Source of the DNA: Peptococcaceae bacterium | GTDB lineage: Bacteria; Bacillota; DSM-12270; Thermacetogeniales; Thermacetogeniaceae | Direction of reading: 5' to 3' | Length of the DNA: 64,000 nt | Assembly (NCBI GenBank): GCA_023249405.1 | Contig: JAHFCR010000005.1 | Location: forward strand, 1-64,000 | Shown here: piece after piece, positions 3,694 to 59,255 of the stretch | Layout of the letters: every line of letters begins with the position of its first letter | How positions within the stretch are numbered: the first letter of the stretch is position 1 | Translations under genes and position numbers: made by a program | Notes under the pieces: generated by a model | Database searches by the model: none | Told to the model about the DNA's origin: nothing | The model's input: only the letters and a program-made list of their open reading frames with translations

Positions 3694-3738
3694 TATTACT
3701 TCTCTTTGCGGCAAGTCAACGCTTGCCGTTTATCCGAT

Positions 3739-3928
3739 AGCTAACCGCCGCTAAGACTCCCGCTTCAAGAAGCGGGAGATAAGCGGCGCTAAGCCGGGTA
3801 CCCGGGTACCCTCTGGGTGGGGTGGGATAACATCTTCTAAGACACCACGCCGCCCGGCGGCGCCATCAGAGAATGAAAATGAACATTTTCAGAGCAGATT
3901 CAGATGGGGTTAAAATCCCACCTGAATC
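3739..3928 (+). repeat. Structured dispersed repeat, copy A (full, two modules)
   Basis: Module 1 (3739-3795) starts GCTAACCGCC and ends CGCTAAGCCGGG. CGCCGCT (3746-3752) can pair with AGCGGCG (3782-3788), enclosing the perfect hairpin CTCCCGCTTC/GAAGCGGGAG (3757-3778). After a GC-rich middle, module 2 (3897-3928) is a hairpin with arms GATTCAGATGGG and CCCACCTGAATC around GTTAAAAT. Both modules recur at 46859-46976, and module 1 recurs inverted at 59162-59224. It could be a relic of a mobile element end (for example IS200/IS605 type with a structured RNA) or a non-coding RNA; the sequence does not decide. Confidence 0.65.
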
Positions 3929-3989
3929 AAGAATTTGTTTATTAGCGCTGAATATCATATTCCCCCTTGCTGGGCACTTGTTAACAAGC

Positions 3990-26467: not shown

Positions 26468-26656
26468 AGTAAAAGTACCCTGCGATGTGCGTGTTTATTC
26501 GGGGAGTTTTGAGCCAACACCAAAACTTAGGAGCTTGGGCTCTGACTGCAGCTTGCATGCCCTTGATGGGGATCCGAAAAGCAGTCAGGCGGGTACCGCC
26601 GTTGTGAGCCGAGGTTCGAAAACACCCGATGGCACGGCAACCGTGGGGTATCTTTA
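26468..26656 (+). ncRNA. ssrS: 6S RNA (RNA polymerase-binding regulatory RNA)
   Basis: This RNA of about 188 nt folds into the long open-promoter mimic that traps sigma-A RNA polymerase in stationary phase. Hallmarks of the Firmicute type are seen: the ends pair (AAAGTACCC near 26471 with GGGGTATCTTT near 26645), and the upper part carries GAGCC paired to GGGCTC around the CTTAGGAGCTT stretch, followed by GCATGCCC and GGGGATCCGAAAAGC. Position behind aspS is common for clostridial 6S RNA. The 189 bases contain no coding frame with a ribosome site, and a good promoter precedes it. Confidence 0.88.
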
Positions 26657-46846: not shown

Positions 46847-46858
46847 TTTTATTATCAG

Positions 46859-46976
46859 GCTAACCGCCACTAAGTCTTTTAGGGAGACAAGCGACGCTAA
46901 GTCGGCTGCACTGGCGGGTGCCTGGGCGCGATAGGTTCAGCTGAACTTTAGTTAGGGTTTTAACCCCAACTAAAGT
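46859..46976 (+). repeat. Structured dispersed repeat, copy B (between murA and ftsQ)
   Basis: Module 1 (46859-46903) starts GCTAACCGCCACTAAGTCT and ends GCGACGCTAAGTCGG, clearly related to copy A but with a different inner hairpin, GTCT/AGAC (46874-46889). Module 2 (46945-46976) has arms ACTTTAGTTAGGG and CCCCAACTAAAGT around the shared core. The arms differ from copy A yet still pair almost perfectly, so structure is kept while sequence changes. There is no coding frame. It splits the dcw operon at murA/ftsQ; effect on transcription unknown. Confidence 0.6.
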
Positions 46977-47007
46977 AAGTATCCTTTAGTCTGGGAGTGG
47001 ACAAGCC

Positions 47008-58583: not shown

Positions 58584-59159
58584 ATGCCGATCAATGTTGA
58601 TGATCTGATAAGAGATGCATTGGAGTCGGGGGCTGCGCATGCAGCGATGGCGGATACGTCTAAGATCGTGTTCCACGAGGAGTTCAGGCAGGCCTGTGAA
58701 AAAAACGTGTGCCGGAAATACAATACCAACTGGATGGGTCCGCCGGCGATCGGCCCGATATCCGAGCTGATGGAAAGGGCCAGGAAATACAGACAGGGGC
58801 TGCTGTTCCAGACGGTCCATCAGCTGGACAGAACCTTTGATTATCAGGGCATGCTTGAAGGCGGCAGGATCCACGAGCGGGTGTTCAGAACCCTCTTGGA
58901 AAAGATCAGGACAAAGTACGCATTCAGTGAGATGCTTCCCCTGAATGCAGGTTGTTGCAGTATCTGTGAGAGATGCGCCTATCTTGACCAGGAGCCGTGC
59001 CGCCACCCCGATCTGGCAGTTTCTTCGGTGGAGGCATACGGGATTGACGTGATGGCTCTGGAAAAAAGTGCCGGCATTCCGTATTATAATGGTAAAGATA
59101 CTGTTTCCTATGTCGGTCTGATCCTTTTTAATGAGGATGAAACGACGCCTGATACATAG
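58584..59159 (+). CDS. DUF2284 predicted metal-binding protein
   Basis: This 191-residue cysteine-rich protein has KIVFHEEFRQACEKNVCRKY (about 26-45), then the cluster CCSICERCAYLDQEPCRHPD near 120-140, the DUF2284 signature with likely iron-sulfur or metal ligands, and VEAYGIDVMALEKSAGIPYY. Family members occur in methanogens and anaerobes; the reaction is unknown. ATG 58584 follows AGAGGGGGAGTAACGG. It may be read through from nrdG. The stop is followed at once by inverted repeat copy C. Confidence 0.8.
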   Translation: MPINVDDLIRDALESGAAHAAMADTSKIVFHEEFRQACEKNVCRKYNTNWMGPPAIGPISELMERARKYRQGLLFQTVHQLDRTFDYQGMLEGGRIHERVFRTLLEKIRTKYAFSEMLPLNAGCCSICERCAYLDQEPCRHPDLAVSSVEAYGIDVMALEKSAGIPYYNGKDTVSYVGLILFNEDETTPDT

Positions 59160-59161
59160 GG

Positions 59162-59224
59162 CGGCGCCCGGCTTAAGCCGCTTATCTCCCGCTTGAGAGA
59201 GGCAGGAGTTTAATGGCGGTTAGG
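59162..59224 (-). repeat. Structured dispersed repeat, copy C (module 1 only, inverted)
   Basis: Read on the minus strand this gives CTAACCGCCATTAAACTCCT, then AAGCGGGAGATAAGCGGC (18 bases identical to copy A), then TTAAGCCGGGCGCC. The inner hairpin CTCCTGC/GCGGGAG is kept with a T.G wobble. Module 2 is absent. It lies between the DUF2284 stop and pgeF, opposite in orientation to copies A and B. Confidence 0.65.
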
Positions 59225-59255
59225 CACATCAAATAAAAGAAAAAAGGGACAGCGC

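Follow-up and report, generated by a model that had tools for sequence, protein, structure and literature searches.

Three copies of a structured repeat in the window

The window analysed here, the first 64,000 nucleotides of contig JAHFCR010000005.1 from a Peptococcaceae bacterium, contains three copies of a structured repeat, hereafter A, B and C (Table 1). All three had been noticed in a first, sequence-only reading, and all three were retrieved by a covariance model, copy C weakly (E 0.002). The 18 bases reported as identical in copies A and C, AAGCGGGAGATAAGCGGC, are visible in the sequence. The interval first given for copy A, 3739-3928, does belong to a real copy, but the element proper extends further on both sides and starts directly after a target pentamer, TTTAT. 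Copy B, initially read on the minus strand, lies on the plus strand like A, and only the loop of its hairpin 2 is reversed (TTTTAA versus TTAAAA). According to Pfam, the neighbours of copy B are a murA-like gene (EPSP_synthase family) and an ftsQ-like gene, and those of copy C a DUF2284 gene and a Cu-oxidase_4 (laccase) gene. The initial remark that the copies have no transposase next to them holds for the window, and a search of the whole genome for a Y1 transposase was also without match.

Pairing in the three copies was compared with shuffled controls. Folded as single-stranded DNA, copies A and B beat all 200 shuffles (z −6.6 and −3.8, respectively), but copy C shows no excess (z −0.9, 38 of 200 shuffles being as good). 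Copy C is convincing in its left half only, and is a decayed remnant of that half. An Rfam scan of the window at gathering scores returned only a 6S / SsrS RNA (RF00013, 65 bits), at 26474-26653 on the plus strand.

Table 1. Coordinates of the repeat copies and of their parts in the window
Feature	Position	Strand	Evidence and remarks
Left target pentamer TTTAT of copy A	3729..3733	+	Part of the flank, kept after insertion; left-end alignment; empty sites of other copies retain exactly this pentamer
Copy A, complete element, long form with nested module	3734..3942	+	Covariance-model match 3729-3943, 94.9 bits, E 1.5e-19
Hairpin 1 (left end) of copy A, GCTAACCGCCGCTAAGACTCCCGCTT...AAGCGGGAGATAAGCGGCGCTAAGC	3740..3794	+	Covarying helices 2 and 3; DNA fold
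Nested extra hairpin module of copy A, ~54 nt	~3843..3896 (boundaries approximate)	+	Long versus minimal copies; missing from minimal ones
Hairpin 2 (right end) of copy A, GATTCAGATGGGGTTAAAATCCCACCTGAATC	3897..3928	+	Covarying helix 5; DNA fold
Element-carried right-end pentamer TTTAT of copy A	3938..3942	+	Right ends compared; elsewhere TTGAT or TTAAT beside a differing target
Copy B, decayed complete element	46851..46991	+	Covariance model 42.4 bits, E 1.3e-7; fold z −3.8
Hairpin 2 of copy B, reversed loop TTTTAA	46945..46976	+	Inverted repeat
Copy C, decayed left-half remnant	~59177..59226	-	nhmmer 59226-59177; covariance model 59112-59237, 23.8 bits, E 0.002

Copy number and distribution

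The genome-wide search proposed in the sequence-only reading revealed many more than three copies, and with the folds of A and B the outcomes named there as refuting were avoided for these two copies. Copy A gives 97 local blastn matches on many contigs of its own draft genome, with full-length copies 89-92% identical to it, and the covariance model gives about 76 matches, a few of which are opposite-strand echoes of palindromes. With the same model, 50 and 44 matches were obtained in the two congeners and a single one in each of two other family members, and none was found in the 15 remaining members of the family. In a survey of 399 genomes sampled evenly from the phylum (E up to 1e-5), 37 carried the element; they belong to 30 genera and, from the same table, to 21 families. 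Carriers among the matches listed by a pattern scan of named genomes include Thermincola, Desulfosporosinus, Syntrophomonas, Sporomusa, Pelosinus, Tindallia, Anaerovibrio and several Clostridium. Clostridium sp. OS1-26 (genome G405) has 63 matches and Pelosinus fermentans JBW45 has 19. The plasmids, phages and viral contigs searched gave no match, and a literature search with the element's own sequence strings retrieved no paper.

Anatomy and covariation

A minimal copy measures about 132 nt (128-139 nt) and is made of a left compound hairpin and a right hairpin. Its layout, starting from the flanking TTTAT, is CCGATA, hairpin 1, CCTGGATAAC, hairpin 2 and a terminal TTTAT. Hairpin 1 comprises an outer helix, an internal loop AAGA/GATA and an inner helix, and the outer helix of hairpin 2 takes in the right end of the element. 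Palindromes thus sit near both ends, but there are no terminal inverted repeats, the two extremities, TTTATCCGATAGC and ...AAGAATTTGTTTAT, being unrelated.

That the fold is kept while the sequence changes, as first suggested from the window copies, was confirmed by covariation on 27 diverse copies. The covariance model built from them (R1) has 134 positions and 45 pairs. Over the 27 sequences, 92% of the pair cells are paired and 22 pairs have changed on both sides, in both hairpins. Such both-side changes occupy 121 cells; shuffling gives 35±5 of them, and sliding the partners never more than 30.

Long forms reach about 340 nt. Extra hairpin modules were frequent among the 30 copies of the own genome that were read with their flanks, and occupy two sites, one in the 3′ arm of hairpin 1 (CGCCGTATCCGGGC...ACGGCACAGGT), the other before hairpin 2, as in copy A. 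Clostridium copies have a different insert in hairpin 1. The core of the module nested in copy A (GCCGCC..GGCGGCGCCATCAGAGAATGAAAAT) also occurs alone in other genomes of the same family, and in genome G005 it lies beside two CRISPR arrays (loci L036 and L045, near 1501). This core is probably a second small repeat family.

Mobility, target and ends

Aligned copies have sharp ends and unrelated flanks. To find empty sites, which had been put forward as a check for relatives, the joined flanks of 16 copies were compared with eight genomes and the junctions were then aligned. Precise empty sites were found in sister genomes. Three copies of G151 have theirs in the congener G034, for example ATATATGTTTAT/ACAACC, and those of the copies at L112 (genome G030) and L229 (G148) were recovered in G114. 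Another copy, placed inside a gene of G030 that we name tnpB-like from sequence reading, has four uninterrupted counterparts in the same genome. The remaining junctions were less exact, and one G148 site holds a short element remnant. From the empty sites, the inserted piece is CCGAT...TTTAT, located directly 3′ of a TTTAT-like pentamer.

The target and the right pentamer differ at L112 (TTTAT and TTGAT) and at L229 (ATTAT and TTAAT). In both cases the empty site has the target only; no target duplication has occurred, and the right pentamer is therefore carried by the element. Among 101 distinct copies, this right pentamer is TTTAT in 68, TTGAT in 11, TTGAA in 7 and TTAAT in 5, and the left one is TTTAT in 63, with several variants otherwise. 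Tandem copies, encountered in G360, in Pelosinus and in one Anaerovibrio genome, have one TTTAT in common, the arrangement predicted if a new insertion uses the right end of a resident copy as its target.

We conclude that the repeat is a non-coding mobile DNA element with two hairpins, which inserts 3′ of TTTAT or a close variant of it without duplication, has fixed ends and brings its own right pentamer. At the outset the repeat had been read in three ways: as an RNA, as a hairpin in DNA maintained by selection, or as a mobile element with hairpins at its ends. These readings are partly supported: the last one is borne out by the many copies, the sharp boundaries and the precise empty sites. 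A classical MITE, derived from a DDE transposon, was discarded, as neither terminal inverted repeats nor a target duplication were found.

Mismatches and loop inversions

A structured RNA that happens to be mobile, either a small RNA or the guide RNA of an IscB/TnpB-type nuclease, would account for the strong covariation, and the TTTAT at the left end followed by unrelated sequence past the right end would suit the target motif and guide of a TnpB-type system. Several observations make it very improbable. No copy reaches a gathering score in Rfam, HEARO included, and scans down to E 2-5 list no HEARO. The mismatches also differ from those of RNA, which is expected to tolerate G·U and to avoid A·C. 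The 101 distinct copies contain 94 G·T and 98 A·C cells, compared to 48 and 2 for the tRNAs of the same sequences. Because equal numbers of G·T and A·C are also expected from neutral decay of old copies, which may contribute to this balance, the consensus sequences of 14 groups were folded as well. They have 30 G·T in 671 pairs (4.5%), versus a share of about 7% in tRNAs, a mild difference.

Loops occur in both orientations. In the own genome, the hairpin 2 loop reads TTAAAA in 9 copies and TTTTAA in 6, with no intermediate, and that of hairpin 1 reads CTTCTTGAAG in 17 copies and CTTCAAGAAG in 2. Two orientations without intermediates make up a flip-flop pattern. In one copy, present in both L021 and L145 (L145, 1645-1778, minus strand), hairpin 1 has been perfected to a full-length palindrome. 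Template switching or cruciform processing of DNA hairpins would be expected to produce both loop inversion and a perfected hairpin 1, and copies differing only by the inversion of a loop would then offer a natural record of such processing. Taken together, the balanced G·T and A·C mismatches and the two loop orientations point to a DNA rather than an RNA.

As for nuclease guides, RRXRR (IscB/IsrB) was not found in the own genome by a search that does find one in the congener G002. The latter gene, of the IscB/IsrB type, lies at L091 (916-2142, minus strand), and its ends are unrelated to the repeat. A HEARO/IscB guide RNA was rejected on the Rfam and RRXRR searches and on the unrelated ends of this IsrB-like element. 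The copy at L145 gave a full-length, sub-threshold match to Rfam STnc400 (47 bits, gathering score 80). Both consist of two successive hairpins, and we treat the match as a likeness between long hairpins. When E. coli genomes and plasmids were searched with part of the STnc400 consensus, no repeat present in multiple copies emerged.

A proposed IS200/IS605-like route

In IS200/IS605 transposition by Y1 transposases (PMC6006769, PMC5934647), the element goes in 3′ of a short fixed target that stays on its left, it brings its right site along, it has hairpins just inside its ends, and guide segments precede the feet of these hairpins on the 5′ side. Forms devoid of transposase are called PATEs, for palindrome-associated transposable elements (PMC7290912, PMC3119063). 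As these published hallmarks match the ends, target and hairpins of the present element, mobility by an IS200/IS605-like route is favoured. We estimate at about two in three the probability that it is a non-autonomous, PATE-type element, moved as single-stranded DNA in the IS200/IS605 manner by a Y1 (HUH) transposase acting in trans. Catalysis by Y1 is likely, and we infer the single-stranded intermediate, the Y1 enzyme and the guide function alike.

In such a scheme, the hairpins at the left and right, once folded, would be the binding sites of a HUH transposase of the Y1 type acting in trans. As guides, GATA, 5′ of the foot of hairpin 1, would base-pair with the TTTAT target on the left, and GGATAA, likewise placed at hairpin 2, with the right pentamer that the element carries. 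The element would then be cut out as a single-stranded circle, and this circle re-inserted directly 3′ of another TTTAT. At the right end, 26 of the 27 sequences allow the pentamer to pair with the segment preceding hairpin 2, and the G051/G001/G002 group, whose right site is TTGAA, displays a compensatory A-T to T-A switch. At the left end, GATA or GATG is present 5′ of the foot of hairpin 1. The GGATAA segment can also pair with the left TTATCC, and by this complementarity one GGATAA may serve both ends.

Search for the transposase and for a parent element

No Y1_Tnp match was found in the own genome or its two congeners, nor in G360, G148, G291, G141, G025 and G368. Among the latter, G141 is a single-contig genome and G360 holds eight near-identical copies of the element. 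Altogether, 9 of the 39 carriers checked, the own genome included, have no detectable Y1 transposase. Y1_Tnp was present in 30 of these 39 carriers and in 32 of 51 non-carriers, hence without association with carriage.

A parent element was not detected either. None of the 657 half-element hits (some loci overlap) is a coding or ORF-bearing copy, and none has gene-size cargo in the searched sequence; long gaps at L396 and L050, considered as autonomous copies, were actually separate or deleted copies. Y1 loci were scanned with profiles of the whole element and of each end. They yielded no more than one truncated copy close to a tnpA (L280) and, as the closest sign of kinship, a left-hairpin likeness upstream of tnpA in the IS605 copies L282 and L283 that is statistically weak (E 0.07 and 0.007). 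The Y1 genes examined in G034, G051, G030 and G018 have no copy within about 2 kb. In G405, two IS200-type tnpA copies (L476 and L479) have a match split over two frames and are probably broken.

Replication-strand bias, in the form of a preference for the lagging-strand template, is absent. With origin and terminus placed from GC skew, 33 of 63 copies in G405 and 11 of 19 in G404 have the expected orientation. Together with hairpins longer than the 20-25 nt typical of IS200/IS605, this lack of bias speaks against the Y1 explanation, as do the carriers devoid of a Y1 match, the tally and the parent search above.

The same observations lend support to a different enzyme moving the same element, which could be an unrecognised HUH enzyme, a recombinase whose substrate is a single strand in folded form, or a pathway of host replication or repair. 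Nine carriers without Y1_Tnp, among them G360 and the single-contig G141, an orientation unbiased relative to replication and the missing coding parent would all fit. On the other hand, the ends, the target and the lack of duplication are those of IS200/IS605, and Y1 genes may have been lost since the last burst or sit in gaps of draft assemblies, so that we regard a non-Y1 enzyme as unlikely. Similarly doubtful, in our estimate, is a long-lived, phylum-wide family of two-hairpin DNA with a structure of its own and no parent IS, moved by something other than a known Y1, such as a replication factor of the host or a single-strand transposase yet to be described.

Another candidate is a REP/REPIN-like sequence mobilised by domesticated transposases of the RAYT (TnpA-REP) type. 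Such sequences also come as many intergenic hairpin copies, and several carriers do encode Y1 proteins of 250-300 aa, fitting RAYT-like enzymes. The element nevertheless has two unlike ends in fixed order, a length of about 132 nt and insertion directly 3′ of TTTAT; the GTAG or GTGG foot that is the published mark of REPs is absent; none of its copies adjoins a Y1 gene in G034, G051, G030 or G018; and some carriers are without any Y1 match. A REP/REPIN origin is thus quite improbable, and the trans-acting Y1 transposase is the reading that we retain in what follows.

Comparison with known systems

With REP/REPIN and their RAYT, the element shares many intergenic hairpin copies presumably moved in trans, but differs in size, in its two unlike ends, in the TTTAT target and in having no link to Y1 genes. 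HEARO and the IscB-IsrB guide RNAs likewise combine a conserved multi-stem structure with a link to IS200/IS605-type elements; in our case there is no Rfam match, and no nuclease gene lies beside the copies.

The likeness to IS200/IS605 elements such as IS608 and ISDra2 is closer in the following respects: insertion 3′ beside a target kept at the left, a right site within the element, subterminal hairpins, possible guides and no duplication. The present element lacks both tnpA and tnpB, its compound hairpins are much longer, and no replication-strand bias was found. The element behaves like an IS200/IS605 but is not one, being without the defining gene.

The PATEs of Haloquadratum walsbyi (PMC3119063) and the PATE-like sequence of Halanaerobium hydrogeniformans (PMC7290912) resemble it in being too short to code, in having near-terminal palindromes and no terminal inverted repeats, and in their many copies inserted at a fixed short target without duplication. 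Further likenesses are insertion polymorphism despite a broken or absent tnpA, and small repeats nested in the palindromes. All PATE features tested were observed here except the link to a parent IS, where the statistically weak left-hairpin likeness at L282 and L283 is what we found. Haloarchaeal PATEs are associated with IS605 elements resident in the genome and do not extend beyond their hosts, whereas the present family holds one structure and length across 21 bacterial families, with no parent element found.

The exact ends, target and empty sites allow the element to be annotated rather than mistaken for a small RNA. In Haloquadratum, strain-specific insertions were described even though one strain has only broken tnpA genes (PMC3119063). 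Transposase-less IS605-like elements are known to have moved in genomes without a working tnpA, and with several carriers here devoid of any Y1 match this puzzle is now testable, in what is apparently an undescribed, phylum-wide family of PATE-like elements in Firmicutes.
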